DNA of 32,419 nucleotides from a bacterium. Its GTDB lineage: Bacteria; Ratteibacteria; UBA8468; B48-G9; DTJG01. Each line of letters begins with the position of its first letter. The stretch's first letter is position 1. The stretch lies in the NCBI GenBank assembly GCA_029552985.1, contig JAKPDB010000092.1, forward strand, positions 1-32,419. The letters run 5' to 3'. The position numbers and the translations under genes are program-made. The notes under the pieces are model-generated. The model saw only the letters and a program-made list of their open reading frames with translations, was not told the DNA's origin and ran no database searches. Below, in pieces: positions 3,172-32,419 of this stretch.

Positions 3172-4699
3172 GGACTCTTTAAGGAAAAGGTATTTTTATA
3201 AACTCTTTACAAATATTGCTGGATACGCCATTGGTTTGATTACAATGGGAATTATTCCAAGGGCGCTTGGACCAAAGGCATTTGGAGATTTCAATTTTCT
3301 TACAAATTTTTTCAACCAGGTTGTTAACTTTTTGGACATGGGCAGTTCCACAGCATTTTTTACAAAGATTTCCCAGAGACAAAAAGAGTCCTCTCTTTTT
3401 GCCTTTTATTTGTGGTTTACCGTTTTGGTGACTATTTTGATTTTGCTCGGAGTATCACTGGCAGGTGTGTTTCGTGTTCATCAGAGATTATGGCCAGGCC
3501 AGAATATTATTTTTGTTTATTGCGGTGCATTATGGGCGATTTTGAACTGGGTTTTTAATGTTCTGAACCAGGCAACAGATGCATATGGATTGACTGTTTC
3601 TGCTGAGATAAAAAAGTTGTATCAAAAGATATTTAGCGTAATGTTGATACTGATTCTTTTTTATAATCATCTCATCAATCTTGCCAGTTTTTTCATTTAT
3701 CAGTATGCCATTCAAATTTTTATTATCCTCTCATTTTTTTGGGTTTTGAAACAAAATAGGAAACTTCCATATAGGTGGAAAATGACGCAGGAACAAACCA
3801 GATACTATGGTAAGGAATTTTTTGTTTACTGTTATCCCCTGTTTTTTTATTCTCTTTTTAGTTTACTCACAGGAATATTTGATAGATGGATTTTGCAGTA
3901 TTATAGTGGAAGTGTCCAGCAGGGATTTTATGGACTTGGTTACCAGATTGGAACAATATGCCTGATTTTTACATCGTCAATGACACCATTGTTTATCAGG
4001 GAATTTTCTATGGCATATGGAAATCAGGACAGAGATAGGATGATATTTTTGTTTCGTAGATACATTCCTTTTCTGTATGTGATTACCGCTTATTTTTCCT
4101 GTTTTGCTGCAACCCAGGCAGATGTTCTCATAAAAATATTTGGTGGTTCTCAATATAGTGCGGCGCTTTTACCGGTAATATTGATGTGCATCTTTCCGAT
4201 ACATTCGACATACGGACAATTAAGTGGTTCTGTTTTCCTTGCCACAGGGCAGACAAAACTATACAGAAACCTCGGCGTTCCATTCATGATTTTTGGTTCT
4301 ATGCTGACATATATTCTAATAGCGCCGCAGGATAAATTTGGTTTGAACATGGGTGCATCTGGTTTGGCAATAAAGATGGTGTTGCTTCAATTTATTCTGG
4401 TAAATGTTCAACTATTTTTTAATGCGAAATTTCTTGGAATTTCCTTTATTCGATATTTTGTTCATCAAATTATTGTAATTGTTTTGTTTCTTGCTATAGG
4501 AATTGATTCAAGATTTTTTGGGGACTTTTTGTTACGCGGGACTCCATTTATTTTCAGTTTCATTTTTTCTGGGCTTGTTTATACAGCAGTTTGTATTGTC
4601 TGTGCATTTTATTATCCAAGGGTTTTTGGTTTGTACAGGGACGACATTGAATTTTTCTTACGGTTTTTTCAGTTCAAGGACTTGACAGCAAAAAAATAG
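3164..4699 (+). CDS. Wzx-type polysaccharide flippase
   Basis: The product (511 residues) is an integral membrane protein with roughly 12-14 hydrophobic segments spread along its length. The opening NIAGYAIGLITMGIIPRALGP followed by FGDFNFL is characteristic of the polysaccharide_synt / MOP-superfamily flippases. Such proteins move undecaprenyl-linked repeat units across the inner membrane. I chose ATG 3164 over the upstream in-frame start at 3080 because it begins at the family's usual N-terminus. It also overlaps the upstream gene by only 8 bases and has GGAG at 3147-3150 ahead of it. The upstream start would add 28 residues read from inside the previous gene. Its presence marks the locus as a flippase-dependent (Wzx/Wzy-like) glycan pathway, although no polymerase is recognisable in the window. 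Confidence 0.85.
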   Translation: MVEDSLRKRYFYKLFTNIAGYAIGLITMGIIPRALGPKAFGDFNFLTNFFNQVVNFLDMGSSTAFFTKISQRQKESSLFAFYLWFTVLVTILILLGVSLAGVFRVHQRLWPGQNIIFVYCGALWAILNWVFNVLNQATDAYGLTVSAEIKKLYQKIFSVMLILILFYNHLINLASFFIYQYAIQIFIILSFFWVLKQNRKLPYRWKMTQEQTRYYGKEFFVYCYPLFFYSLFSLLTGIFDRWILQYYSGSVQQGFYGLGYQIGTICLIFTSSMTPLFIREFSMAYGNQDRDRMIFLFRRYIPFLYVITAYFSCFAATQADVLIKIFGGSQYSAALLPVILMCIFPIHSTYGQLSGSVFLATGQTKLYRNLGVPFMIFGSMLTYILIAPQDKFGLNMGASGLAIKMVLLQFILVNVQLFFNAKFLGISFIRYFVHQIIVIVLFLAIGIDSRFFGDFLLRGTPFIFSFIFSGLVYTAVCIVCAFYYPRVFGLYRDDIEFFLRFFQFKDLTAKK

Positions 4700-13309: not shown

Positions 13310-14413
13310 ATGATACCGGTTGCAAGACCATGTCTTGGTGAAGAAGAACTTGAAGAAGTAAGAAAGGTTTTTGAATCAGGATGGCTTGGAATGGGTGCTT
13401 GGGTGAAAAAATTTGAGGATGAATTGAAAGATTTTTTCAATGTAAAGCATGTCATTGCAGTCAATACCGGAACATCTGCCATTCACCTTGCTCTGGTCTC
13501 GTGTGGCATAAAGCAGGGTGATGAAGTGATTGTCCCTTCTCTTACTTTTGCAGCAACAATTCAGGCAATTGTGGCAACAGGTGCTTCTGTAGTTTTTTGT
13601 GATGTCCAGCCAGATACACTGAACCTTGACCCTGAAGATGTCAAAAAAAGAGTAAGCTCAAAAACAAAGGCAATTGTTCCTGTACATTATCGCGGTTATC
13701 CCTGTGAAATGGACCAACTGAAAAACATCGCAAAACAACATCGGCTAAGAATTATTGAAGATGCAGCACACGCATTCGGTTCAAAATACAGAGGAAAAAA
13801 GATTGGTTCTTTTGGTGATGTCACATGTTTCAGTTTCGATCCCATTAAAATCATTACCTGTGGCGAGGGAGGTGCAATTGTTACGAATGATGACGATGTT
13901 GCAATAGCTGCTGAAAAGGGAAGAATTCTTGGAATCAATAAAGACACATGGTCACGCTATAAACACGAAAGAAGCTGGTTTTACGATGTTGAAACAATTG
14001 GCTTCAGATATCATATGAGCAACATTAATGCAGCAATCGGTATTGTTCAAATGAAGAAATTTCCGCGATTTCTGGAAAGAAGACTTGAAATTGTAAAATT
14101 GTATGATGAAAATTTGAAAAATATCAATGGCATAAAACTTCTTAAAACTGATTATAGGTCAATGGCACCGTTTTGCTATATTATCAGGGCAGAACAAAGG
14201 GACAACCTAATGGCATATCTGAAAAAAAATGATATAGATAGTGGTATTCACTATATTCCCAATCATCTTCAATCGTTTTTTTCAAAATATAAAACATCAC
14301 TGCCTATTACTGAAAAAATCTGGAATGAAATTCTTACGCTGCCTCTGTATTACGGGTTGCAGAATGAACAGGTATTGATGATATGTGACAGAATTAAAAA
14401 TTTTTATTCTTGA
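13310..14413 (+). CDS. DegT/DnrJ/EryC1/StrS sugar aminotransferase
   Basis: This 367-residue PLP enzyme belongs to the DegT/DnrJ/EryC1/StrS family, which converts nucleotide-linked keto sugars into amino sugars using glutamate. The opening IPVARPCLGEEELEEV, the NTGTSAIHLAL substrate/PLP segment and EDAAHAFGSKY are typical. The PLP lysine is K180 in SFDPIKIITCGEGG. Length is normal for the family. AGGAG sits 5 bases or so before the ATG. The stop TGA overlaps a TTG that may start the next gene. No nucleotide-sugar 4,6-dehydratase is present in the window, so its keto-sugar substrate must come from elsewhere. Confidence 0.92.
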   Translation: MIPVARPCLGEEELEEVRKVFESGWLGMGAWVKKFEDELKDFFNVKHVIAVNTGTSAIHLALVSCGIKQGDEVIVPSLTFAATIQAIVATGASVVFCDVQPDTLNLDPEDVKKRVSSKTKAIVPVHYRGYPCEMDQLKNIAKQHRLRIIEDAAHAFGSKYRGKKIGSFGDVTCFSFDPIKIITCGEGGAIVTNDDDVAIAAEKGRILGINKDTWSRYKHERSWFYDVETIGFRYHMSNINAAIGIVQMKKFPRFLERRLEIVKLYDENLKNINGIKLLKTDYRSMAPFCYIIRAEQRDNLMAYLKKNDIDSGIHYIPNHLQSFFSKYKTSLPITEKIWNEILTLPLYYGLQNEQVLMICDRIKNFYS

Positions 14414-14415
14414 AA

Positions 14416-15366
14416 ATGGCGAAAGTAAGCGTAATAGTCCCGGTTTATAATGCTGAGCGTTTTATAGGAGAAACACTGAGAAGTGTTTTGTGTCAGACAT
14501 ATAAAGACATAGAAGTGATTGTGGTTGATGACGGTTCAACGGATCATTCTGTTGAGGTGATAAAAAAATACAATGATCCAAGAATAATGTTAATAAGACA
14601 GCAAAACAGAGGAGTTTCTGCGGCTCGTAATACAGGAATTAAATCTTCAAATGGCAAATTTATTGCATTACTTGACCACGATGACCTGTGGCTTGCTGAA
14701 AAAATTGAGAAACAAATGATCCTGTTTGAAAAAAATCCTGATGTGGCTCTCGTGTATTCAGATATCAGTTATATTGATGGCGAAGGTAAACCAGTATCAT
14801 GGATGCTAAAACAGTTCGAGCCACATCGGGGTTATGTGTTAAGAGAACTTTTTGTCAGCGATTTTATACCCTGTCTTACTGCTGTTTTTAGAAAGGATGT
14901 TCTTGAAAAAATAGGGCTTTTTAATGAAAGATATAGGTATGCTGAAGAATATGAGTTGTTTTTGAGAATAGCAAGATTTTTTCAATTTGATTTTGTTGAT
15001 GAAGTTCTTGCCTGTTACAGGGTTCATCAAAGCAATCTCAGTAGAAATATCATTAACAGTTACCTTGAAAATATTGAAATACTTGAACATTTTTATCACA
15101 CGGTTCCTGAGGTGAAAAACTTTGAATATACTGCGAGAAAAAGAATTGCGAATATGTATTTTATTACAGGAAGAAGATTTCAGGTTGAAGAAAAAAACAG
15201 GACTGAAGCGATAAGGATGTTTAGAAAATCGTTGATTTATAATAAAATTTCAATCAAAGCCATGGTCGGTCTTCTTACAGCGTGTCTCAATGTTCCGGTT
15301 CCGAGAAGGCACAGGATTTTGAAATGTTTTACTCCTAAAAACATTTTTGATGCTCATGAGAAATAA
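14416..15366 (+). CDS. Family 2 glycosyltransferase
   Basis: The product (316 residues) opens with the GT2 signature AKVSVIVPVYNAERFIGETL. It shows the nucleotide-binding VVDDGSTD near 37-43 and a DxD-type LLDHDDLW at about 85-92, followed by a YAEEYELFLRIAR segment corresponding to the catalytic-base region. It is an inverting GT-A enzyme acting at the cytoplasmic face. Either ATG 14416 or the upstream TTG at 14410 (which would form a TTGA overlap) could be the start; neither has a clear Shine-Dalgarno and I prefer the ATG. It overlaps the next gene by about 17 bases. Confidence 0.88.
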   Translation: MAKVSVIVPVYNAERFIGETLRSVLCQTYKDIEVIVVDDGSTDHSVEVIKKYNDPRIMLIRQQNRGVSAARNTGIKSSNGKFIALLDHDDLWLAEKIEKQMILFEKNPDVALVYSDISYIDGEGKPVSWMLKQFEPHRGYVLRELFVSDFIPCLTAVFRKDVLEKIGLFNERYRYAEEYELFLRIARFFQFDFVDEVLACYRVHQSNLSRNIINSYLENIEILEHFYHTVPEVKNFEYTARKRIANMYFITGRRFQVEEKNRTEAIRMFRKSLIYNKISIKAMVGLLTACLNVPVPRRHRILKCFTPKNIFDAHEK

Positions 15367-16510
15367 CTCCTGCGGGGAAAGGCCCTGCGTAATAGTTTTC
15401 GTGATATCCAGCCTTGGATGTGGTGGGGCAGAAAAGGTTGTTACAAATATTGCCAATCATCTTTCTGTGTTGGGAAATTCTGTGAGCATTGTCACGTTTG
15501 ACAGCCCTGTAAATAAACCATTTTTCCCATTAAATAAGGAGATTGAACTTGTTCAGTGCGATATGCTTCATGTGGGGACAAATTTTATTTCAGGTCTGAA
15601 AAATAACATAAAAAGGATTCTCATTCTTCGCAGGATAATAAAGCGACTGAAAGGAGACATTGTCATTTCATTTATGGATCGAACCAATGTGATTACTCTG
15701 ATTGCTACAAGATTCTTAAAAATTCCTGTTATTGTTTCTGATAGAACAGACCCGATTCTTGGCAATCCTGGAAGAATGTGGCGTTTGTTAAGGATTATTA
15801 TGTACCATTTTGCCTGCAAAATCGCAGTGCAAACAGAAAAAGTCGTAAATAAATATCCCGTTACTTTTCGAAAAAAAATTGTTGTGATTCCAAATCCTGT
15901 AATGAAACCAGAAAAAAAATTGGTCCAGAGACAGGGTAATCTCATTGTTGGAATCGGTAGATTATCAGAGGAGAAAAATTTTCATCTCTTAATAGAAGCG
16001 TTTTATGGTATAAAAAAGAAATATCCTGATTGGCATCTTGAAATTTATGGAGATGGTCCATTAAGAAAACAACTGGAAAATCTGATATTGAAATTGAATT
16101 TGAAAGATTCAGTAAAGTTACCTGGCGTGGTAAAGGATATTGATGAAGTTTTGCAAAGGGCCGATATTTTTGTACTATGTTCAAAGTTCGAAGGGTTTCC
16201 AAATGTATTATGTGAAGCAATGGCAAATGGTTGCGCGGTGGTTTCCAGTAGATGTGGTCCAGCAGAAGAAATTATTATTGATAATGAGAATGGATTGCTG
16301 GTGAATATTAATGATGTTGAAGAAATCAAAAAAGCAATTGAACATTTGATTACGAATGAAGGTTTGAGAAGCCGGATTGGAGAAAAGGGCAGAGAAATTA
16401 CTGAAAAATATAGTATGGACAGAATAATTGGAAATTGGTTATGTGTGATAGAAGAATGCGCTATTTCTAAATTTAAACGAATAGGATGCGATGAACATGA
16501 GAAAAATTGA
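15350..16510 (+). CDS. Family 4 glycosyltransferase
   Basis: A retaining GT-B enzyme of about 386 residues. The N-terminal SSLGCGGAEKVVTNIANHL is the usual GT4 acceptor-side loop. IVGIGRLSEEKNFHLLIEA and LEIYGDGPLRKQLE mark the inter-domain and donor domains. The donor-binding EX7E motif is E281 to E289 (EGFPNVLCE). The start is uncertain: TTG 15347, ATG 15350 and ATG 15356 are all in frame, with no clear Shine-Dalgarno. It overlaps the previous gene by 17 bases and the next by 20. It adds a hexose-type residue to the lipid-linked unit; the donor is unknown. Confidence 0.88.
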   Translation: MLMRNNSCGERPCVIVFVISSLGCGGAEKVVTNIANHLSVLGNSVSIVTFDSPVNKPFFPLNKEIELVQCDMLHVGTNFISGLKNNIKRILILRRIIKRLKGDIVISFMDRTNVITLIATRFLKIPVIVSDRTDPILGNPGRMWRLLRIIMYHFACKIAVQTEKVVNKYPVTFRKKIVVIPNPVMKPEKKLVQRQGNLIVGIGRLSEEKNFHLLIEAFYGIKKKYPDWHLEIYGDGPLRKQLENLILKLNLKDSVKLPGVVKDIDEVLQRADIFVLCSKFEGFPNVLCEAMANGCAVVSSRCGPAEEIIIDNENGLLVNINDVEEIKKAIEHLITNEGLRSRIGEKGREITEKYSMDRIIGNWLCVIEECAISKFKRIGCDEHEKN

Positions 16511-17321
16511 GAAGCAATCTGTTAACTTGCAAGATAGAATTAGTTTTTCCTTTGGGAAAAACTGGGAAGAGTTTATTAATAAATATTTTAGTGAGGAAAG
16601 GGTTCGTGTGACCATTGACCACATTCTTTCTTTTCTGGAGATGCCTGATTTGAAGGGAAAGTACTTTCTTGATATAGGGTGCGGAAGTGGTTTGTCTTCT
16701 CTTGCTGCATTTAAAGCAGGAGCAGATAGAATAGTAAGTTTTGATATTGACCCAATATGTGTTGAAATTACAAGGAAATTGAAAGAATTAAACGGTAATC
16801 CAGTAAAATGGAAAATTCTTCAGGGTTCGATTCTTGATAAAAAATTCCTGTCATCCATTGAGCCAGCAGATATAGTTTACTCGTGGGGTGTACTTCACCA
16901 TACAGGAAATATGTGGACTGCGATTCAAAATGCAGCAAATTTAATGAAAAATAATGGACTTTTTTACGTGGCTTTGTATGTGGAAACCCCTTCTTCTGAA
17001 TACTGGTTAAAGATCAAGAAGAAATATAATAGGTATTCGCCTGCTGGAAAAAGAATAATGGAGGTATGGTTTATTTTCAGAAGAATAGCAGGTTTGATTA
17101 TCAGAGGGAAAAATCCGGTTGCATATTTCCGTGAATATAAAAAAAAGCGAGGTATGTCGTATTTGATAGATGTGAGAGACTGGCTTGGAGGGCTTCCTTA
17201 TGAGTATGCAAAAATTGAAGAAGTACTTCGATTTTGCAGAAAAAATCTGAATCTGGAACTCATGAATTTAAAAACAGGTGAAGCAAACATTGAGTATCTT
17301 TTTACAAGAAGGAAAGCTTGA
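16491..17321 (+). CDS. Class I SAM-dependent methyltransferase
   Basis: The 276-residue product shows motif I as FLDIGCGSGLSS (D61 to S70), the strand 2 acidic pair in VSFDIDP, and the conserved DIVYSWGVLHHTG segment of the Methyltransf_11/UbiE-like group. The C-terminal part is basic and less conserved, as in many glycan methyltransferases. AGGA at about 16483-16486 serves either ATG 16491 or ATG 16497. It overlaps the upstream GT4 gene by 20 bases and the downstream GT4 gene by 4 (TTGA). It probably caps or decorates the glycan made by the flanking transferases. Confidence 0.82.
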   Translation: MNMRKIEKQSVNLQDRISFSFGKNWEEFINKYFSEERVRVTIDHILSFLEMPDLKGKYFLDIGCGSGLSSLAAFKAGADRIVSFDIDPICVEITRKLKELNGNPVKWKILQGSILDKKFLSSIEPADIVYSWGVLHHTGNMWTAIQNAANLMKNNGLFYVALYVETPSSEYWLKIKKKYNRYSPAGKRIMEVWFIFRRIAGLIIRGKNPVAYFREYKKKRGMSYLIDVRDWLGGLPYEYAKIEEVLRFCRKNLNLELMNLKTGEANIEYLFTRRKA

Positions 17322-18436
17322 AATTGCCATGTATATCGCGCGGGAAAAAAGTGCCAAAGATTTGTTATATTATAGGAACGCTTGAAGTGGGTGGGACAGA
17401 AAAACAACTGTATCTTTTACTCAAATATATGGACAGAAGTAAATTTTTTCCTCTTGTTATTTCTTTAAGAGATGGAAGAATGAAAAACGAATTTCAACAA
17501 ATTTCAACTCTTTATGTTTTGAATAAAAGGTCAAAATTTGACATAAGAAATTTTTTCCATTTGATAAAGGTCATAAAAGAGGAAAGGCCTGATATTGTTC
17601 AGACGTTTTTATTTACATCAAATACTTGGGGACGTCTGGCAGCTATACTTGCCAGGGTGCCTGTGGTTATTGCTTCTGAAAGAAGCATGGATATCTGGAA
17701 GAAAAAATTCCATTTTCTTATTGACATTGTTCTGGGTTTTTTTACAGATGCCATTGTGTGTAATTCATTTGTTGTAAAAGAATATTACAAAAAAAAACTG
17801 GGACCGATTTCAAGAAAATTAACTGTGATAAGAAATGGCATTGAATGGCAAAATTTTTGCATTGAAAGTCAAACTCACACCAAAAAAGAAAAAATCATTT
17901 TTACTGCCAGCAGGCTTGCTCCAGAAAAGGGTATTGAATATCTAATACAGGCAGTAAGAATTTTGTCAGAAAAGATGAAGAATGTAAAACTTGTGATTGC
18001 TGGCGAAGGTCCTTTAAGAAAACAACTTGAAAATTTTACCGGTCAGCAGGGTATAAAAGAAATTGTGAAGTTTTTGGGATATCAGGAAAATGTCAGCAAG
18101 TACATCTCACAAGCAGATGTGGTTGTGTTGCCTTCCTTGTGGGAAGGGTTGCCCAATATTCTTATTGAAGCAATGGCAATGAAAAAACCAGTTGTTGCAA
18201 CAGCAGTTGGTGGAACAAAAGAGATTGTTAAAGATGGAGAAAATGGTTTTCTTGTTGAGCCCAAAAATGCTATGGCGCTGGCTGAAAAAATTAAAAGAAT
18301 TCTTGATGATGAAAAAATCGCAATAAATTTTGGTGAAAATGGTTATAGATTTGTGAGAGAAAATTTTGACCTGTTTTTGATGATTTCTTCATACGAAAAG
18401 CTTTATCAAAAATTATTTTGTAGGCAGAAACTATGA
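17318..18436 (+). CDS. Family 4 glycosyltransferase, TTG start
   Basis: A second GT-B enzyme (372 residues), with IIGTLEVGGTEKQLYLL at the N-terminus, IIFTASRLAPEKGIEYLIQA in the middle, VIAGEGPLRKQLE, and an EX7E donor motif at E276 to E284 (EGLPNILIE). It lacks any in-frame ATG near the start. TTG 17318 is chosen because AGAAGGA lies about 5 bases upstream and the TTG forms a TTGA overlap with the methyltransferase stop. A GTG 12 codons in is the alternative. It is the last glycosyltransferase of the locus and sits 15 bases ahead of the AsnB-like gene. Confidence 0.88.
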   Translation: MKLPCISRGKKVPKICYIIGTLEVGGTEKQLYLLLKYMDRSKFFPLVISLRDGRMKNEFQQISTLYVLNKRSKFDIRNFFHLIKVIKEERPDIVQTFLFTSNTWGRLAAILARVPVVIASERSMDIWKKKFHFLIDIVLGFFTDAIVCNSFVVKEYYKKKLGPISRKLTVIRNGIEWQNFCIESQTHTKKEKIIFTASRLAPEKGIEYLIQAVRILSEKMKNVKLVIAGEGPLRKQLENFTGQQGIKEIVKFLGYQENVSKYISQADVVVLPSLWEGLPNILIEAMAMKKPVVATAVGGTKEIVKDGENGFLVEPKNAMALAEKIKRILDDEKIAINFGENGYRFVRENFDLFLMISSYEKLYQKLFCRQKL

Positions 18437-18451
18437 TATGGTGAGGTAAAC

Positions 18452-20350
18452 ATGTGTGGAATATGCGGAATTGCTGGTAAAGAAAAAAGAATTTCAGATT
18501 CTCTAATAAGGAAGATGGCGTCCACAATGGTTCATCGGGGACCAGATGAAGAGGGTTTTGAATTTTTTGACAATGTTGGATTGGGCCACAGACGATTGAG
18601 AATTATAGACCTTACAACAGGCAAGCAACCAATGTCAAATGAGAACCACACAATTTTTCTTATATGCAATGGAGAAATTTACAATTTCAGGCAACTGAGG
18701 AAATCCCTTGAAAATTGTGGACATGTTTTCAGGACACAATCAGACAACGAAGTAATTCTGCATCTGTATGAACAGCATGGAACTGGATGTTTGAAATTTT
18801 TAAGGGGAATGTTTGCCTTTGCCATATGGGATGACAGAGACAAGACACTATTTCTTGCTCGTGATAGACTTGGCAAAAAACCACTTGTTTATTCAATAAA
18901 AAATCATAGCATTTACTTTGCTTCTGAAATCAAGGCATTGCTTGAGGTGGAGGAGATTTCAAGAGAAATAAACCTTAAAGCAATTGACCTTTTTCTTACC
19001 TATCAGGCAATTCCAGCGCCATGGACGATATTCAAGGAGATAAAAAAATTGCCACCTGCTCATTATTTGATATGGAAAGATGGAAAGGTGAAGATTGAAA
19101 GATACTGGCAGATTGACTTTACAAAAAAACTCAAGCTGAAAAATGAACATGAATATATTGATGCGATGTGGGAAAAACTTGTAGAATCAACAAAATTAAG
19201 AATGATTGCCGACGTTTCACTGGGTGCTTTTTTAAGTGGTGGCATTGATAGTTCAACAATTGTTGGCATCATGAGTGAAGTTTCAAAGGAACCTGTGAAA
19301 ACATTTTCAGTTGGGTTTGAAGAAAGCGATTTCAGTGAATTGCATTATGCAGGAATTGTTGCTAAAAAATTTCGAACTGAGCATTACGAATTCATTGTTA
19401 AACCCGACATTATTTCAATACTGCCAAAACTCATCTGGTATTATAATGAACCGTATGCAGATTCTTCAATGGTGCCCACATACTATGTGGCAAGAGAAAC
19501 AAGCAAGCATGTGGTTGTTGCATTAAATGGAGATGGAGGCGACGAAAATTTTGCTGGTTATACACGATACTGGCAGACAGAACTTCTTGAAAAAATCTAT
19601 CGTGCCTATGGATACATACCATTGTTCAGGAAGCAAATCTTAAAAACTTTGACAAAATTTCATGAAAAATTTCCTTCAAACACCGTTTTCAGAATCTGGA
19701 AATGGCTGGAGGAAACTGAAAAATATGGGTTTGACTACGCGTATGCAAGAAGATTGATTTCTTTTACGCGAGATTTCAGATTAGGTATTTATTCAGAAGA
19801 AATGAAAAAAGAAATTGCTGATTTTGATTCATTGTTTCTTGTAAGAAAAATCTGGGATAATTCTGGAGACATTGATTTACTTGAGAAGATGCTTGCAACG
19901 GATTTTCAAATTTATCTCCCTGACGTACTGATGGTAAAGATGGACATTGCGACGATGGCAAATTCGCTTGAGGCAAGAAGTCCTTTTCTCGACCATGAAT
20001 TTGTGGAACTTGTGGCGTCTTTTCCTTCTCATCTAAAAATGAAAAGCTTTAAATCAAAGTACCTATTGAAAAAGAAATTAAAAAATTTCCTGCCAGATGA
20101 AATTGTTACAAGAAAAAAAATGGGTTTTGGAATACCGGTTGGTAGATGGTTCAGATACGAATTAAAAAATTTTCTTCAAGAGATTCTTTTAGATAAACAT
20201 GTTTCTTCAAGAGGATATTTCAAACCGGAATTGGTCAGGAATATGGTTGAACAACACATTTCAGGAAGTGTGGACCACACAAGCAGGTTATGGTCTCTTG
20301 TGATGCTTGAAATGTGGCATAAAATTTTCGTTGACAAAAAATTTTTTTAA
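18452..20350 (+). CDS. asnB: Glutamine-hydrolysing asparagine synthetase homologue
   Basis: This 632-residue class II glutamine amidotransferase begins MCGICGIAG with the Cys2 nucleophile exposed after Met removal. The N-terminal Ntn domain has VHRGPDEEG, GHRRLRIIDL and CNGEIYN, and the ATP-pyrophosphatase domain carries SGGIDSS at 262-268. The length and motif set match AsnB. Asn is made from Asp, ATP and glutamine by the canonical enzyme. AsnB homologues at the end of polysaccharide loci are often thought to amidate uronic acids or other carboxylates of the glycan, and that reading fits here. A GTGAGG sits before the ATG. It closes the + strand locus; only an A/T palindrome follows, not a real terminator. 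Confidence 0.9.
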   Translation: MCGICGIAGKEKRISDSLIRKMASTMVHRGPDEEGFEFFDNVGLGHRRLRIIDLTTGKQPMSNENHTIFLICNGEIYNFRQLRKSLENCGHVFRTQSDNEVILHLYEQHGTGCLKFLRGMFAFAIWDDRDKTLFLARDRLGKKPLVYSIKNHSIYFASEIKALLEVEEISREINLKAIDLFLTYQAIPAPWTIFKEIKKLPPAHYLIWKDGKVKIERYWQIDFTKKLKLKNEHEYIDAMWEKLVESTKLRMIADVSLGAFLSGGIDSSTIVGIMSEVSKEPVKTFSVGFEESDFSELHYAGIVAKKFRTEHYEFIVKPDIISILPKLIWYYNEPYADSSMVPTYYVARETSKHVVVALNGDGGDENFAGYTRYWQTELLEKIYRAYGYIPLFRKQILKTLTKFHEKFPSNTVFRIWKWLEETEKYGFDYAYARRLISFTRDFRLGIYSEEMKKEIADFDSLFLVRKIWDNSGDIDLLEKMLATDFQIYLPDVLMVKMDIATMANSLEARSPFLDHEFVELVASFPSHLKMKSFKSKYLLKKKLKNFLPDEIVTRKKMGFGIPVGRWFRYELKNFLQEILLDKHVSSRGYFKPELVRNMVEQHISGSVDHTSRLWSLVMLEMWHKIFVDKKFF

Positions 20351-23964: not shown

Positions 23965-25011
23965 ATGGGAAACATGAAAGATATGCCAGATTTTATTGAA
24001 ACTGAACAGCATCTTGAAGAGTTTTTGTCAAAGCCGTATCCCGAAGTAATAGAATTGTGCAAAGTCCTGCAAGGAGACATTATTATACTTGGAGTAGCAG
24101 GAAAGATGGGACCATCACTGGCTTTACAGATAAAACGAGCTGATGATATTGCTGGTACCAAAAGAAATATTATTGGTATTGCGAGATTTTCAGACTCCCA
24201 GATAAGGAAGAATCTTGAAGATTCTGGTATCAAAACTATTTCATGCGATTTGCTTGATAGAAATGGAGTTGACAATCTTCCTGATGTACAGAATGTAATT
24301 TTTATGGCAGGAATGAAGTTTGGTTCAAGTGTTAATCAGCCCCTCACATGGGCAATGAATGCCTATGTTCCAGCACTTGTTGCAACAAAGTTTAGAAACT
24401 CCAGGATTGTTGCGCTTTCTACTGGAAATGTATACCCTTTGGTACCTGTGTCGTCTGGTGGTTCAAAGGAAACAGATACGGTCTGTCCGATTGGAGAATA
24501 TGCACAATCGTGTCTCGGGCGAGAGAGAGTTTTTGAATTTTTTTCAACGAAGTTTTCGATACCTTCTGTGTTGATACGGCTTAACTATGCAGTTGAATTA
24601 AGGTATGGAGTGATTTATGATATCGGTGTAAAGGTATATAAAGGGGAAAAAATAAATCTCGAAAATGGATATGTCAATGTGGTCTGGCAGGGGTGGGCAA
24701 ATAGTATTATTTTCAGATCGTTCAGTATCTGTTCTGTTCCGCCCAGAATCCTTAACCTGACAGGTCCTGAAATTCTTTCTGTAAGACACATTGCAGAACA
24801 ATTTGGTAGATTATTTTCAAAGAAACCGTTGTTTGAAGGTAAGGAGGCAGATACAGCATATCTTTCAAATGCTTCGCAATGTTTCAATCTTTTTGGTAAA
24901 CCTGATATCACTCCAGAGACAATTATTAGGTGGGTTGCCCGCTGGATAGAAATCGGCGGTAGGTCTCTCAATAAACCAACGCATTTTGAACAGCGACAAG
25001 GGAGGTACTGA
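23965..25011 (+). CDS. Extended SDR (epimerase/dehydratase-like) without catalytic Lys
   Basis: The 348-residue product is an NAD-dependent epimerase/dehydratase-type SDR. The cofactor loop is GVAGKMG at 43-49. ALSTGNVYP at ~150-158 is the usual catalytic Ser/Thr segment, and RLNYAVE near 205-211 matches the later conserved strand. The YxxxK motif reads YAQSC, with Tyr179 present but the Lys replaced by Cys183. An intact enzyme of this family normally needs that Lys. It may use another residue, act as a binding protein or carry out a different chemistry. GGGAGGAGG lies before the ATG. Its stop overlaps the next ATG by one base (TGATG), so the two genes are translated together. Confidence 0.8.
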   Translation: MGNMKDMPDFIETEQHLEEFLSKPYPEVIELCKVLQGDIIILGVAGKMGPSLALQIKRADDIAGTKRNIIGIARFSDSQIRKNLEDSGIKTISCDLLDRNGVDNLPDVQNVIFMAGMKFGSSVNQPLTWAMNAYVPALVATKFRNSRIVALSTGNVYPLVPVSSGGSKETDTVCPIGEYAQSCLGRERVFEFFSTKFSIPSVLIRLNYAVELRYGVIYDIGVKVYKGEKINLENGYVNVVWQGWANSIIFRSFSICSVPPRILNLTGPEILSVRHIAEQFGRLFSKKPLFEGKEADTAYLSNASQCFNLFGKPDITPETIIRWVARWIEIGGRSLNKPTHFEQRQGRY

Positions 25012-26069
25012 TGGTGGAAAAACTTAACAAAAAGATTTTAAAAAAGATTAAAAAGGGTACTGTTATTCCAGCCCATCCACTGGCACTTACAGAAAAGAGG
25101 TCACTTGATGAGAAAAGGCAGAAAGCCCTTACGCGATATTATCTTTCAGCAGGCGCAGGAGGAGTGGCGATTGGTGTACATACGACACAATTTGAAATTC
25201 ACGACAAAAAAATCGGGCTTTACAGACCAGTTCTCGAACTTGGTTCAGAAACAATTTCAGAATTTGAAGAAGAACACAAACCCGATATTCCTGTAGTCAG
25301 GATTGCGGGTGTCATAGGAAAAACCCAGCAAGCTGTTGAAGAAGCAACCATTGCGAAGGAATTAGGATACCATGCAGTACTTTTAAGTTTATCTGCATTC
25401 AAGAATTCAACAAACAAAGATATGCTTGAGCATGTGCGAACGATTTCAGAAATTGTGCCAATTTTTGGATTTTATCTTCAGACTGCTGTTGGAGGCAGAG
25501 TACTTGACTATCATTTCTGGAGAGATTTTGCTGAAATTGAAAATGTCATTGCCATTAAGATAGCGCCATTTAACAGATATCAAACAATTGACGTGGTGAG
25601 AGCGATTGCTGAGAGTGGACGAGACATTGCACTGTATACTGGTAATGACGATAACATTGTCTTTGATCTTTTGACCCCATTTTATTTTGGAAATAAAACA
25701 GTAAGAATCGTGGGGGGCTTATTGGGTCACTGGGCTTTCTGGACATCAAAGGCAGTGGAAATTCTTACCAGAATTCACTCTGTTGTTGAGAAGGGATTAC
25801 CAGTGCCACCGGATCTGCTAAAACTCGGGGTAGAGGTGACGGATTGCAATGCAGCGATTTTTGATGCAGCAAACAATTTTGCGGGCTGTATTCCTGGAAT
25901 CCATGAGATTTTGAGAAGGCAGGGACTATTGAAAGGCAACTGGACATTAAAAGAGGATGAAATTCTTTCTCCAGGACAAAAAGAAGAAATCGACAGGGTC
26001 TATAAATCTTATCCTCATTTGAACGATGACAATTTTGTATCTGAGCATCTGGATAAGTGGTTAGAATAA
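25011..26069 (+). CDS. DapA/NanA-family class I aldolase/lyase homologue
   Basis: This is a TIM-barrel protein of the dihydrodipicolinate synthase/N-acetylneuraminate lyase superfamily. The Schiff-base lysine is recognisable as K183 (VIAIKIAPF) and the partner tyrosine as Y155 (FGFYLQTAVGG). The substrate-carboxylate GTTGE motif is altered to GVHTTQF (about 55-61). At 352 residues it is about 60 longer than the usual ~290, mostly at the C-terminus. It probably forms an imine with a keto acid or keto sugar and cleaves or dehydrates it. It overlaps the SDR gene by one base, so the pair is likely a pathway step or complex. True lysine biosynthesis is unlikely given the altered motif and context. 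Confidence 0.8.
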   Translation: MVEKLNKKILKKIKKGTVIPAHPLALTEKRSLDEKRQKALTRYYLSAGAGGVAIGVHTTQFEIHDKKIGLYRPVLELGSETISEFEEEHKPDIPVVRIAGVIGKTQQAVEEATIAKELGYHAVLLSLSAFKNSTNKDMLEHVRTISEIVPIFGFYLQTAVGGRVLDYHFWRDFAEIENVIAIKIAPFNRYQTIDVVRAIAESGRDIALYTGNDDNIVFDLLTPFYFGNKTVRIVGGLLGHWAFWTSKAVEILTRIHSVVEKGLPVPPDLLKLGVEVTDCNAAIFDAANNFAGCIPGIHEILRRQGLLKGNWTLKEDEILSPGQKEEIDRVYKSYPHLNDDNFVSEHLDKWLE

Positions 26070-28663: not shown

Positions 28664-28692
28664 AATTGACAGAATTTTTGAAACAAAATAAC

Positions 28693-29553
28693 ATGAATCC
28701 AAACATAGATCTTTGTAGAAAAATTCAATTACTGTTGCCGGGATTGAGTATATCGGAGAAAAAGGTAGTAGAATTCCTTTGTTCAAGAAGGGCTGAAATT
28801 CCATTTTTATCGATATATAAAGTCGCAAGAGAATCCGGGGTCAGTACAGCGACTGTCAGCAGGCTTGCACGCAGGGCAGGTTGTAAAAATTTTGCTGAGA
28901 TGAAGATATTGCTGGCGAGGGAAACTGAAAACCCGCTCAACAAAATTTTTGGGGATATCAAGCCAGAAGATTCTGATGAAGAAATCGTACACAAAGTATT
29001 CCAGGGCAATATCAAGAGTCTCGAAGATACATTACATATTACTGACACAAAAAATCTGAGTGAACTGGCGAAAAGGATAATTAAAGCAAACAGATTAATA
29101 TGTATTGGCATCGGTGGTTCAGGAAATGTTGCACAGGATGCAGCATTAAGGTTTTCACATCTTGATATCCAGGCCGAAGCCTACACTGATTATTATCAGA
29201 TTTTGATACAAACACTGAGAGCCGATGTAAAAACTGTTGTACTCGGGATTTCTCATTCTGGACGTTCATCCATCACAGTTGAAGGGCTAAGGATTGCGAG
29301 ACGAAAAGGTTCAATAACAGCAGGGATTTCGAATTATTTAAACAGTCCTTTGCACGCTGTTTCAGATTTTTTCTTCTGCACATCTTTTACAGAAACAGGT
29401 GTTAAGGCAGCGGCACTTTCATCAAGAATAGCACAGTTGTGTCTTATCGATGCCATTTATATTCTTGTAGCAAGATATAAAAAGAAATTGTGGGATATTG
29501 AAAGATTGAACAATCTGGCGGATAAAGTTCTCAGGAAAAAAACCGATGAATAG
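28693..29553 (+). CDS. MurR/RpiR-family transcriptional regulator
   Basis: The 286-residue product has an N-terminal HTH_6-type DNA-binding domain (about residues 1-75, with VSTATVSRLARRAGC as the helix-turn-helix). A SIS sugar-phosphate-binding domain spans about 115-245, including LICIGIGGSGNVAQDAALRF and VVLGISHSGRS. Family members sense a phosphosugar and control sugar catabolic genes. I chose ATG 28693 over the in-frame TTG at 28666 because the promoter at 28636-28663 would start transcription after that TTG. No Shine-Dalgarno is visible at either. It overlaps the kinase gene by 8 bases, so the likely ligand is a phosphosugar made by this operon. Autoregulation is likely but no operator was identified. 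Confidence 0.92.
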   Translation: MNPNIDLCRKIQLLLPGLSISEKKVVEFLCSRRAEIPFLSIYKVARESGVSTATVSRLARRAGCKNFAEMKILLARETENPLNKIFGDIKPEDSDEEIVHKVFQGNIKSLEDTLHITDTKNLSELAKRIIKANRLICIGIGGSGNVAQDAALRFSHLDIQAEAYTDYYQILIQTLRADVKTVVLGISHSGRSSITVEGLRIARRKGSITAGISNYLNSPLHAVSDFFFCTSFTETGVKAAALSSRIAQLCLIDAIYILVARYKKKLWDIERLNNLADKVLRKKTDE

Positions 29554-31021
29554 AGAAAAGAATTATCTTGCTATTGACATAGGTGCTTCGAGTGGAAAGG
29601 CGATCTGTGGAACATTGAAAAACGGAAAAATGACATTGAATGAAGTATCCAGATTTGTCAATGAGCCAGTGTTAATTAATGGAAGTCTGCGCTGGAACAT
29701 CCTATCTTTATGGACAGATGTATTGAACTGCATTTCAGCGTGTTTGAATCAGGGTTTTGAAAATATTTCATCAGTGGGAATTGATACATGGGGAGTTGAT
29801 TTTATCTTTCTTGACGAGATGGGGCATGTTTTGCAGAATCCATTTCATTATAGAGACGAAATTACGTCAGACGTTGAAAAATGGATTGAAGATAAAATAC
29901 ACGAACAAGACCTTTATGAAATTACAGGACTCAGAATAGGTCGGGTAACCACACTTTCTCAGATGGTTTCATTAAAAATGAAATTGCGATGGCTTTTTGA
30001 TGTGGCGAGAACTTTTTTGATGATGCCAGATTTTTTTAGATATCTATTGTCTGGAAATATTGCGTGCGAGCTGACAAATGCCGGGTCATCTCAGTTACTT
30101 GATATTCGTACAAAAAAGTGGAGCAAAAAGATTTTCGATACTTTTAATCTTCCATTGAATATTATGCCTGAAATTGTTTATCCGGGCACTATAGCAGGGA
30201 AGTTACGCAAGGAAATATCAGGAAAATTTCATTGTAAGAATACGAATGTTTCTGTAGTGGCTGGACATGACACAGCATCTGCGGCAGCTGCAGTGCCATT
30301 TGTTGACCAGAATACACTATTTATCAGTTCCGGGACATGGGCAGTATTTGGATTGATTTCAAAATTTCCGCAAACAGATGACAGAACCTTTAAAGCCGGA
30401 TTTATAAATGAACCTGGATTTGACTGTATATTGGTTGTGAGAAATATGGCTGGTCTTTATTTGTTTGAAAATTTTTACAGGCGACTTTTTGAAAAAGACA
30501 GAAAAATTACTTATAGGAAAATGATAGAATCTGCAATGGATTCCAGTGGATTTCAGTTGTTTCTTAATCCCAATGATCATCTTTTTTTCTCAATAGAAAA
30601 TGGAGAAATTGCACTGAAGAAATACTGTGATAGTACCGGTCAAAAATACCCAGAGAGAATGGCCGACATATTAAGAGCAATTCTTGAAGGAATTGCTTTA
30701 AGTTTTAAGAAGCCCCTTGAGGATATTCAGGCATGCACAGGAAGAACTTTTGAAAAGATATGTATTGTGGGCGGCGGAGTAAAAAATAAACTTTTGTGCC
30801 AGATGATTGCTGATGCCACAGGATTGCAGGTGATTACAGGCCCATCTGAGGCAGCAGCCGTTGGGAATCTCTGTATCCAGGCATTTGCTGATGGTGAAAT
30901 TCAGGACATCTCCAGAATAAGAGATATGGCTGCAAGTTCCTGCAAAGTGAATATTTTTCAGCCGAAAAATACAGATAGGTGGGAGAAACAATATCAAAGG
31001 TTTAAGCATTTATATTTTTAA
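29546..31021 (+). CDS. Rhamnulokinase-like FGGY carbohydrate kinase
   Basis: This 491-residue kinase is closest to the RhaB subgroup of the FGGY family: LAIDIGASSGKAICG near the start (D11, G13-G17), SVGIDTWGVDFIFLD at ~76-90, HYRDE, and the catalytic HDTASA with D242. The C-terminal part has CIVGGGVKNKLL at ~406-417 and TGPSEAAAVGNL. It would phosphorylate a ketose, or a related sugar or sugar acid, with ATP. RhaB normally acts with an isomerase (RhaA) and aldolase (RhaD). Neither is next to it here; an RLP gene follows 23 bases later instead. The substrate may therefore be something other than rhamnulose, and I do not use the symbol rhaB. Confidence 0.88.
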   Translation: MNREKNYLAIDIGASSGKAICGTLKNGKMTLNEVSRFVNEPVLINGSLRWNILSLWTDVLNCISACLNQGFENISSVGIDTWGVDFIFLDEMGHVLQNPFHYRDEITSDVEKWIEDKIHEQDLYEITGLRIGRVTTLSQMVSLKMKLRWLFDVARTFLMMPDFFRYLLSGNIACELTNAGSSQLLDIRTKKWSKKIFDTFNLPLNIMPEIVYPGTIAGKLRKEISGKFHCKNTNVSVVAGHDTASAAAAVPFVDQNTLFISSGTWAVFGLISKFPQTDDRTFKAGFINEPGFDCILVVRNMAGLYLFENFYRRLFEKDRKITYRKMIESAMDSSGFQLFLNPNDHLFFSIENGEIALKKYCDSTGQKYPERMADILRAILEGIALSFKKPLEDIQACTGRTFEKICIVGGGVKNKLLCQMIADATGLQVITGPSEAAAVGNLCIQAFADGEIQDISRIRDMAASSCKVNIFQPKNTDRWEKQYQRFKHLYF

Positions 31022-31044
31022 AAATTGTTTAAAAAGGAGGCATT

Positions 31045-32385
31045 ATGGAAAGATATCATCTACCAGAAATTTTTCTTAACACGCTTGACGGAATTGATTT
31101 GAACACGCATATCGTTGCAACATATTATATGAAAGACAAACTCGAAGGAGCCCAGTTCATCGACCATTTTGAACTTCTTCAATCAATTGCACTCGAAGGT
31201 TCAACAGGTACCTGGGAAAAGGTTGAAGAGGATACAGAACAGGTTAGAAAAACTCTTTCAGGAAAACTTGTTGGATATTATGAAATTCCTGTTGAGGATA
31301 AATTTACAAGAGAAGCAGTAGTTCAGTTTGCTTTTCCAATTTATGCATGGATAGATAATCTTCCTATGATGTTGCTGTCAATAGCAGGAAACTGTTTTGC
31401 CTATTCTCAGCACTTAAGACTCCTTGACATTTTTTTGCCACAGGACATCCTGAAAAAATTTTCAGGACCGAAATTTGGAGTAGAGGGGATTAGAAAATTA
31501 ACAGGCGTAAAAGAAAGGCCGTTTTCTCTTCACATTATCAAACCAAAGATGGGAATGACTCCAGAGCAGGTTGCTAATCAGGTTTATCAAACTGCACTGG
31601 GTGGCGTTGATATGGTAAAAGATGACGAAATGACATCTGATGTCTATAACAATACTTACCTTGACAGGTTGGATGCTGTACTTGAAAAATTGTATCAGGC
31701 AGAAAAGCAGACAGGTAAAAAAGTAATTTATTTTTTAAGCATTACTCATGAACCTGACAAAATGATTGAACGTGCGCACAAGGCAATCAAGCATGGTGCT
31801 ACAGGGCTGTTGATTACTTATTCAGCGGGCCTGCCTGTATTGAGACAGATTGCTTCTGACCCTGAAATCAATGTGCCGATTTTGTGGCACGCATCTCATA
31901 TGATTGCTGCTCAACCAAGAATATCCTGGCCTGTATTTGCAAAACTTGCTAGAATTTGCGGTGCAGATTTAATGCTTACGCCGACATATTGGTCATCAAT
32001 CCCAATGGTAAGTATGGAAGAAGGTCTTCGCACAGCGCATGTGAAGCTTGCGCCACTTGGCAAAATCAAGCAAACATTTCCAATGCCATGTGCAGGAGTA
32101 TATCCTGGGCTTGCTCCAATTCTTATTGGAGAATATGGACCGGATATTGTGATACCTGCTGGCGGAGGAATGCTTGGTCATCCGGATGGATATACAGCAG
32201 GTGCTGCTGCATGGCAGCAGGCAATAGCGGCAGTTATGGAAGGTATACATATTGTAGAATATGCTAAGAGGCCAGAAAATAAGGCATTAAGAAGAGCAAT
32301 TGAAAAATGGGGATATATTGAAAGGCCTAAAACCCCATGGTTAAGAATTGCTCCACAATTTCATCCGAAGAAAATGGAAATATGA
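31045..32385 (+). CDS. Form IV RuBisCO-like protein (RLP)
   Basis: The 446-residue product is homologous to the RuBisCO large subunit. It keeps the KPKMG segment (K166, K168) and the GGVDMVKDDE site with K192, D194 and E195. These correspond to the carbamylated Lys201 and metal ligands Asp203/Glu204 of the spinach enzyme. It has the GGGMLGHPDG loop at about 373-382. Residues needed for carboxylation are changed: the HRAMH motif is WHASH without the Arg, the His327 position reads DLMLT, and the loop 6 Lys334 region is TPTYWSS. The Ser379 segment is CAG. It is therefore a metal-dependent enolase-, isomerase- or decarboxylase-type RLP, not a CO2-fixing enzyme. AAAAAGGAGG precedes the ATG. It sits behind a kinase, as RLPs do in some sugar-acid pathways (OiaX with OiaK). 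Confidence 0.92.
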   Translation: MERYHLPEIFLNTLDGIDLNTHIVATYYMKDKLEGAQFIDHFELLQSIALEGSTGTWEKVEEDTEQVRKTLSGKLVGYYEIPVEDKFTREAVVQFAFPIYAWIDNLPMMLLSIAGNCFAYSQHLRLLDIFLPQDILKKFSGPKFGVEGIRKLTGVKERPFSLHIIKPKMGMTPEQVANQVYQTALGGVDMVKDDEMTSDVYNNTYLDRLDAVLEKLYQAEKQTGKKVIYFLSITHEPDKMIERAHKAIKHGATGLLITYSAGLPVLRQIASDPEINVPILWHASHMIAAQPRISWPVFAKLARICGADLMLTPTYWSSIPMVSMEEGLRTAHVKLAPLGKIKQTFPMPCAGVYPGLAPILIGEYGPDIVIPAGGGMLGHPDGYTAGAAAWQQAIAAVMEGIHIVEYAKRPENKALRRAIEKWGYIERPKTPWLRIAPQFHPKKMEI

Positions 32386-32419
32386 TGGAGATGGACGGAA
32401 AGACAGAAGCATTATTCAC
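32382..32419 (+). CDS. Start of another gene, 3' partial
   Basis: An ATG at 32382 overlaps the RLP stop codon in ATGA, and a second ATG at 32385 is in the same frame. Only the first dozen codons are in the window (MMEMDGKTEALF). The coupling indicates that the RLP operon continues to the right. The product cannot be identified from this fragment. Confidence 0.5.
   Translation, partial: MMEMDGKTEALF

Follow-up and report, generated by a model that had tools for sequence, protein, structure and literature searches.

A phosphosugar-sensing regulator, a RhaB-like sugar kinase, a RuBisCO-like protein (RLP), a xylose-isomerase-like TIM barrel and a TPP-dependent E1/lipoyl E2 complex are encoded in one operon of a bacterium of the lineage Ratteibacteria, and it is very likely that all of them serve the same pathway. 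Such a shared pathway, which an earlier note made from the sequence alone had inferred for the kinase and the RLP, is strongly supported; its substrate and the chemistry of the RLP remain inferences.

Gene Organization and Operon Continuation

The window, that is, the whole stretch of 32,419 nucleotides that was analysed (contig JAKPDB010000092.1), ends with three genes on the forward strand. The first (28,693–29,553, + strand) encodes a MurR/RpiR-family phosphosugar-responsive regulator (Pfam HTH_6 1.7e-12, SIS 4.6e-14), for which an alternative in-frame TTG start is possible upstream, at 28,666. It is overlapped by 8 bases by the gene of a 491-aa RhaB-like FGGY kinase (29,546–31,021, + strand; FGGY_N/FGGY_C, TIGR02627), a predicted ketose-1-kinase. 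The RLP gene (31,045–32,385, + strand; PF00016 1.8e-38) starts 23 bases past the kinase gene and is complete, coding for a 446-aa member of a separate form IV clade. This tight coupling had been claimed by the earlier note and held, with exact coordinates. Its statement that the operon continues into another gene could not be seen in the window, the 34 bases following the RLP gene (32,386–32,419, no strand assigned) being the beginning of a 248-bp repeated element, with further copies in the genome, at which the contig ends.

The true next gene was found on another contig. The window contig (C45) joins contig C4 (G000:C4, L016) by an exact overlap of 141 bases, 107 of which are RLP sequence. 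After the RLP gene, C4 carries the genes of the xylose-isomerase-like TIM-barrel isomerase (395–1372), the lipoyl E2 (1369–2460), the TPP E1alpha (2457–3419) and the TPP E1beta (3432–4454), separated by −4, −4 and 12 bases. The identical order is present on unbroken contigs of three other members of the genus (G006, G005 and G001). A dedicated isomerase and a TPP–lipoyl dehydrogenase complex were beyond what the earlier note could see, and its claim that rhamnose isomerase and aldolase are absent held only in part, as a sugar isomerase is present but is not RhaA. Rhamnulose-phosphate aldolase (RhaD) is absent from the operon, class II aldolases being located elsewhere in the genome; the occurrence of both RhaA and RhaD downstream, which together with ordinary L-rhamnulose activity of the kinase would have refuted the note's reading, was thus not observed in the operon.

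Conservation across Phyla

The RLP locus recurs at 40 loci, in uncultivated bacteria belonging to about a dozen phyla, and this recurrence puts the gene arrangement well beyond chance. Gene presence within 10 kb of the RLP was counted by tblastn, because under gene-order calling the E1 genes were masked by antisense ORFs in GC-rich contigs. The TIM barrel was found at 26 of the 40 loci, E1alpha at 26, E2 at 25, E1beta at 23 and the kinase at 23, the last count confirming that the kinase–RLP neighbourhood is conserved, as the earlier note had proposed to check. RLP, kinase, TIM and E1alpha occur all together at 16 loci, many contigs being truncated. The regulator beside the RLP is of the RpiR type at 18 loci and of the GntR type at 5. 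Since some RLP loci lack E1/E2 or the kinase within 10 kb, these steps may be optional or encoded elsewhere. Among 13 related genomes, the TIM barrel was present only in four of the five that carry the RLP clade (RLP-X, see below). No recurrent glycoside hydrolase family was detected among the 18 RLP-neighbouring proteins scanned, which gave no hint of the substrate; an apiosidase-family gene (PF13204) lies between E1alpha and E1beta in one related genome, but it is not recurrent among RLP loci.

The RuBisCO-Like Protein

The fold (Foldseek TM about 0.8), the RuBisCO_large N and C domains (PF00016/PF02788) and the lost carboxylation residues place the RLP in form IV of the RuBisCO superfamily. 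Its AlphaFold model (pLDDT 88) has MtnW as best Foldseek match. The 36 full-length RLPs group together in a single clade (100/99), RLP-X, which excludes MtnW, MTRu-1-P isomerase, OiaX and true RuBisCO; its place in the tree is on the side of MtnW, though less firmly so in a second tree. RLP-X retains E60, T/S65, W66, N123, K175, K177, K201, D203, E204, H294, G381, G403 and G404. These include the metal site and K175, as well as the P1 site for one phosphate; lost are the P2 residues R295, H327 and S379 and the loop-6 K334. The loss of the P2 residues and K334 with the P1 site kept indicates that RLP-X is likely a monophosphate-acting, non-carboxylating enzyme, an inference from sequence alone whose chemistry is untested.

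Known identities were tried, and most were rejected. True RuBisCO (forms I–III) is ruled out by the missing catalytic residues (TIGR03326, 228.4 bits versus a cut-off of 497), and OiaX by its model score (145 versus 700 bits) and by the absence of grouping in the tree. The RLP also falls outside the clade of MTRu-1-P 1,3-isomerase (DeepYkr) and lacks its K201-D203-H204 motif, which speaks to clade and motif only, not to 1,3-isomerase activity on a ketose 1-phosphate. For MtnW, the scores were 220.3 bits against a cut-off of 513.6 (TIGR03332) and 270.6 against 409 (PRK09549), and the RLP fell outside the MtnW pair in both trees. In addition, RuBisCO position 123 is an asparagine in the RLP (N116), invariant in 36/36 sequences, and a lysine, the general base of MtnW (GkMtnW K98), in both MtnW sequences. 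The RLP therefore lies outside the MtnW clade, membership of which would have refuted the earlier note, as shown by its separate 100/99 clade, the low model score and the Asn in place of Lys.

Kinase, Isomerase and E1/E2 Complex

The best model for the kinase is rhamnulokinase TIGR02627, whose cut-off it fails (369.6 versus 528 bits); it is 31% identical to E. coli RhaB and its best PDB match is 4c23 (L-fuculose kinase), followed by RhaB (2cgj). A second kinase of the genome, encoded outside the operon, resembles RhaB more closely (38% identity to the E. coli protein). A simple L-rhamnose operon was rejected given the lack of RhaA/RhaD and this separate RhaB-like gene. The RLP-linked kinases do not form one clade; they branch within the RhaB proteins, in some cases next to genuine RhaB, and one locus carries a XylB-like kinase, so that the phosphorylated sugar may differ between loci.

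The TIM barrel is distantly related to D-apiose isomerase (ApsI), with 3ktc as nearest solved structure (1e-57). The same structure comes closest (420 bits) to a TIM barrel of Rhizobium whose gene lies with those of AptA/AptB, AplK and TpiA, corresponding to the apsI type named in PMC13001218. RLP-linked TIMs are mostly of one family (47–82% identity to that of the window genome, versus 33–39% to ApsI), sharing the catalytic-type residues with ApsI and differing at about 11 group-specific positions. The TIM barrel thus stands on its own branch within the ApsI family, without AplK/AptAB in the operon, and resembles RhaI only weakly (68 bits).

RLP-linked E1alphas, drawn from many phyla, group in a single clade (22 rows, 100/99) that is distinct from the housekeeping E1alpha of the genus (44–48% identity). 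The E1 and lipoyl motifs are present and E3 is encoded elsewhere in the genome. Most RLP-linked E2s read HRxxNG instead of the usual HRxxDG (HRLANG in the window genome), for which reason CoA transfer by E2 is not certain. E1/E2/E3 sets also occur within sugar operons of Agrobacterium and Priestia.

Comparison with Known Systems

MtnW (2,3-diketo-5-methylthiopentyl-1-phosphate enolase, form IV-YkrW) provides the nearest solved structures (2zvi, 2oem) and the nearest model, sharing with the RLP the RuBisCO fold, the P1 site and the carbamate–metal site, and is its probable sister group. The RLP differs from it in identity (32%), in its separate clade, in Asn123, in retaining E60 and K177, and in lying in a sugar operon rather than with mtn genes. 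The R. rubrum-type MTRu-1-P 1,3-isomerase (IV-DeepYkr) resembles the RLP in the proposed type of reaction, carbonyl transposition on a ketose 1-phosphate, but belongs to another clade, has His at 204, lacks W66 and K177 and, in one plasmid example, neighbours a cupin gene and not kinase and E1/E2 genes. OiaX/OiaT of D-apiose (apionate) catabolism are likewise RLPs of pentose catabolism with a sugar-acid kinase as neighbour, but are only 27–31% identical, sit on the opposite side of the tree and, for OiaX, retain R295 and K334. Their partner belongs to the four-carbon acid sugar kinases and not to the FGGY family, as observed in the plasmid records examined, in agreement with the earlier note's remark that OiaK-type kinases are not known to be RhaB-like. 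An OiaX/DUF1537-type pathway was accordingly rejected, both RLP clade and kinase being wrong.

D-apiose pathway I (ApsI, AplK, AptA/AptB) has an isomerase of the same family and the same order of isomerase, kinase and TPP enzyme, whereas the operon has a kinase from another FGGY branch, an additional RLP and a PDH-type E1 with lipoyl E2 in place of the split transketolase. The L-rhamnose pathway (RhaB/RhaA/RhaD) has the kinase superfamily in common, but the operon lacks RhaA/RhaD and has the RLP and the TPP–lipoyl complex. Acetoin and pyruvate dehydrogenase complexes share E1alpha, E1beta, lipoyl E2 and the conserved E1 motifs; the operon is distinguished by its RLP-tied E1alpha clade and by HRxxNG for HRxxDG in most E2s.

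Proposed Pathway

The operon can be viewed as a catabolic one for an unidentified aldose, every reaction and the substrate being inferred, and the scheme as a whole is as likely to fail as to hold. The ApsI/xylose-isomerase-type TIM barrel would convert the aldose to a ketose, which the RhaB-like kinase would phosphorylate to the ketose 1-phosphate. The RLP would hold this compound through its retained P1 phosphate site and Mg-carbamate, form the 2,3-enediolate and shift the carbonyl along the chain to give an acyloin, ideally a 1-deoxyketose phosphate, by analogy with the R. rubrum-type RLP and MTRu-1-P. E1alpha/E1beta/E2, with E3 from elsewhere, would then split the acyloin by oxidative cleavage, much as acetoin dehydrogenase does, with NADH, an aldehyde phosphate and an acyl-CoA (acetyl-CoA in the ideal case) as products, and RpiR would sense a sugar phosphate.

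This model is favoured because the tree places RLP-X on the side of MtnW and both MtnW and MTRu-1-P isomerase act on 1-phospho-2-ketones (PMC6302742), and because the gene set is conserved, the E1alphas form one clade and the TIMs are mostly one family. It counts against it that nothing in evidence fixes the substrate and the RLP reaction. Kinship with ApsI hints at apiose; the ketose of apiose, having no C3 hydrogen, could not undergo the proposed enolisation.

Alternative Explanations

A first alternative, considered unlikely, is that the sugar is D-apiose itself. The TIM barrel would yield D-apulose, to be phosphorylated by the RhaB-like kinase, the RLP would cleave a C–C bond at the tertiary carbon of the branched substrate, as OiaX does, and E1/E2 would substitute for apulose-4-phosphate transketolase, giving DHAP and glycolyl-CoA. 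In its favour are the nearest structure and catalytic-type residues shared with the Rhizobium apsI-type TIM, the single PF13204 gene between E1alpha and E1beta, and the reactions of apiose-catabolic RLPs, which either decarboxylate 3-oxo-isoapionate phosphate or hydrolyse it (PMC6302742). Against it, the TIMs are distant from ApsI in both identity and group-specific positions, neither the kinase nor the E1 resembles its counterpart in that pathway (AplK and AptA/AptB, respectively), PF13204 is found even where members of the genus have no RLP, and an RLP step on apulose phosphate has no clear role. The transketolase-type apiose pathway I was rejected, with kinase and TPP enzyme from other families.

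Also improbable is a phosphate elimination by the RLP, in which the 2,3-enediolate of the ketose 1-phosphate would become a 1-deoxy-2,3-diulose that E1/E2 would split into acetyl-CoA and an aldonate. The P1 site and the enolising residues are kept, no aldolase would be needed, and beta-elimination from the enediolate is a side reaction of RuBisCO. However, to our knowledge no RLP has phosphate elimination as its main reaction, the phosphate would be wasted, and there is less precedent for TPP–lipoyl cleavage of diketones.

A variant L-rhamnose/6-deoxyhexose pathway, with RLP and E1/E2 replacing rhamnulose-1-phosphate aldolase, is less likely still. It draws on the position of the kinases within the RhaB part of the tree, where some adjoin genuine RhaB, and on the weak TIM–RhaI similarity, but the kinase nearer RhaB is outside the operon, the TIM is far nearer ApsI than RhaI, and RhaA/RhaD are missing.

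Finally, that the RLP is an ordinary MtnW of methionine salvage, beside a sugar kinase by chance, is all but excluded: MtnW does give the nearest solved structure and the nearest NCBIfam model, but scores are far below cut-off, the clade is separate, Asn invariantly replaces the MtnW lysine, and linkage to sugar genes is conserved across phyla.

Significance

No description of this operon was found in the literature searched (RLP with rhamnulokinase, apulose kinase, acyloin-cleaving complexes on sugar phosphates); an RLP of unknown function beside an "epimerase" gene has been noted in a Hakuba actinobacterium (PMC7325909). The operon points, by inference, to an undescribed route by which uncultivated bacteria from about a dozen phyla would break a sugar down into an activated acid. 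The bolder reading, an undescribed route in which the RLP makes an acyloin out of a ketose 1-phosphate, to be cleaved directly to acyl-CoA by a dedicated TPP–lipoyl complex, could go either way.

RLP clades with an assigned reaction are few, those cited here being the MtnW enolase, MTRu-1-P isomerase and the RLPs of apiose pathways. In RLP-X, a candidate maker of the substrate (isomerase and kinase) and a candidate user of the product (E1/E2) are co-encoded in many lineages, so that four to six purified proteins would suffice to test the RLP reaction. If true, the acyloin-cleavage model would add a new reaction to the RuBisCO superfamily and a sugar-phosphate-cleaving member to the 2-oxoacid dehydrogenase complexes, and would reveal a carbohydrate route in uncultivated bacteria.

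Operon organisation and continuation

The coordinates and coupling of a regulator-kinase-RuBisCO-like protein (RLP) operon, as read in the earlier note, held, and all three genes are complete. On the forward strand these are an RpiR regulator (28693-29553, Pfam/NCBIfam HTH_6/SIS), an FGGY kinase overlapping it by 8 bases (29546-31021) and, after a 23-base gap, the RLP (31045-32385, RuBisCO_large). The best model for the kinase was rhamnulokinase, its 369.6 bits falling short of the NCBIfam cut-off of 528. Two genes upstream of the operon (window 23965-26069), one for a 348-aa product that matches no Pfam family and the other for a DHDPS-like protein, are syntenic in 4/4 RLP-bearing genus members. 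Also upstream, window 13310-20347, which encodes a PseC-like aminotransferase, a glycosyltransferase and an XrtA/PEP-CTERM-type amidotransferase, resembles a gene cluster for surface polysaccharide.

The source genome is a metagenome-assembled genome (MAG) of 2.2 Mb, 86% complete, of which the window makes up one entire contig (G000:C45). An exact 141-base match (107 bases of RLP plus 34 of a repeated element) joins the window's 3' end to the start of another of its contigs (L016). The 248-bp element (window 32386-32419, first 34 bases; L016 108-355) has two further near-full copies in this genome (G000:C87:27551-27797 and 1449-1687), and this repetition explains the assembly break. It has inverted ends, is MITE-like, lies between the RLP and the next gene, and is absent there from all three genus mates. 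L016 continues with a xylose-isomerase-like TIM barrel (TIM), lipoyl E2, E1alpha and E1beta, with 4-base overlaps at TIM-E2 and E2-E1alpha and 12 bases between E1alpha and E1beta, the E3 gene being located elsewhere in the genome. The complete order, RpiR to E1beta, is found on unbroken contigs in three genus members. In one genus mate (G001) the RLP gene (G001:C42:11900-13237) has one in-frame TAG, reflecting sequencing error or decay.

RLP clade and active site

Thirty-six full-length relatives of the RLP formed one clade, RLP-X (support 100/99), which with one reference set was sister to the methionine-salvage enolase MtnW (98/92). When DeepYkr (R. rubrum-type isomerase) sequences were added and the longest branches dropped, this link became weak (74/73) while RLP-X remained intact. 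MtnW was also the closest fold (Foldseek on an AlphaFold model, pLDDT 88), differing in having Lys where RLP-X has an invariant Asn116. In RuBisCO numbering, RLP-X keeps E60, T/S65, W66, N123, K175, K177, K201, D203, E204, H294, G381, G403 and G404, and has lost R295, H298, H327, K334 and S379. The metal and P1 phosphate sites are thus intact, whereas the second phosphate site and loop-6 lysine are gone, from which we infer a non-carboxylating enzyme that acts on a monophosphate. A different, more degenerate RLP clade is found in the same order (L026 10705-14721, L027, L025), close to a homologue, at about 64%, of the FAD oxidoreductase encoded directly after E1beta in the source genome.

RLPs, FGGY kinases and E1/E2 are each of known kinds; no description of RLP-X, its partner set or its spread was found in the literature library searched. 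In 2020 a form IV RLP of unknown function was reported from an actinobacterium, where it lies close to an "epimerase" gene; Spirochaetes, Planctomycetes and Moorella have related proteins (PMC7325909). This RLP may or may not belong to RLP-X. RLP-X might also equal an environmental form IV clade already named but uncharacterised.

Conservation of the gene set

A genome scan gave 39 RLP loci (52-91% identity), all from MAGs, labelled Omnitrophota, Armatimonadota, Planctomycetota, Latescibacterota, Acidobacteria/Terriglobia, Hydrogenedentota, Atribacteria, Spirochaetota, Verrucomicrobiota-type (Kiritimatiellae, Opitutaceae), Actinomycetota, Chloroflexota and Aerophobetes. Counting the window, the RLP neighbours include TIM in at least 26/40 loci, E1alpha in 26/40, E2 in 25/40, kinase and E1beta in 23/40 each and RpiR in 18/40, with RLP, kinase, TIM and E1alpha together in 16; these are lower bounds because many contigs stop inside the operon. 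UROD-family genes, often tandem, adjoin the operon in 12 loci (L039, L044, L052, L056, L057, L068 and others), accompanied in L052 and L056 by a B12-binding protein; demethylation of methylated sugars is one possible role.

The RLP-linked kinases are RhaB superfamily members, yet they do not form one clade, and the window genome has a second RhaB-like kinase nearer true RhaB. The linked TIM barrels are mostly one family (47-82% identical to that of the window genome), confined, among 13 related genomes, to 4/5 of those with the RLP, save one weak 29% match; the fifth RLP genome offers only a short contig. E1alphas beside RLPs of many phyla form one clade (100/99) apart from the genus's housekeeping E1alpha. 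Most linked E2s, including that at L016 1369-2460, have the acyltransferase motif HRxxNG, as opposed to HRxxDG in housekeeping E2s, the Asp being retained in those of Anaerolineae, L060 and L061. Since RLP, TIM and E1alpha co-diversify, they very likely belong to a common pathway, other explanations being hard to find.

Proposed pathway

The substrate could be apiose, a rival that we retain and consider unlikely. In its favour, the operon TIM belongs to an apsI-related isomerase family (nearest solved relative 3ktc) and at one locus an apiosidase-family gene is a neighbour of the operon genes. The TIM family is nevertheless distinct from the apsI type, whose references we take to be the Rhizobium isomerase with an AptA/AptB/AplK/TpiA operon, and 3ktc.

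In the reading that we prefer, the kinase would make a ketose 1-phosphate, RhaB/FucK-type kinases being known to phosphorylate O1 of ketoses, and the RLP would bind this phosphate at its P1 site. MtnW-side RLPs use 1-phospho-2-ketones as substrates, and the R. rubrum RLP shifts the carbonyl of 5-methylthioribulose-1-phosphate (PMC6302742). By analogy with the latter, the RLP, its reaction still untested, would shift the ketose 1-phosphate carbonyl to yield an acyloin. Oxidative cleavage of this acyloin is suggested by the dedicated TPP-lipoyl complex downstream and the lack of an aldolase, and would resemble the action of acetoin dehydrogenase, which is known to cleave its acyloin oxidatively. 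Purely as illustration, a 5-deoxyketopentose 1-phosphate would give DXP and then acetyl-CoA and glyceraldehyde 3-phosphate.

E1/E2/E3 sets also sit in sugar operons on plasmids of Agrobacterium (L147 3441-11904, with ABC transporter, PfkB kinase, oxidoreductase and LipA) and Priestia (L148 2318-9746, in a sorbitol-type PTS operon). Both may be sugar-cleaving TPP-lipoyl systems without an RLP, and such complexes in sugar catabolism are therefore perhaps not unique.
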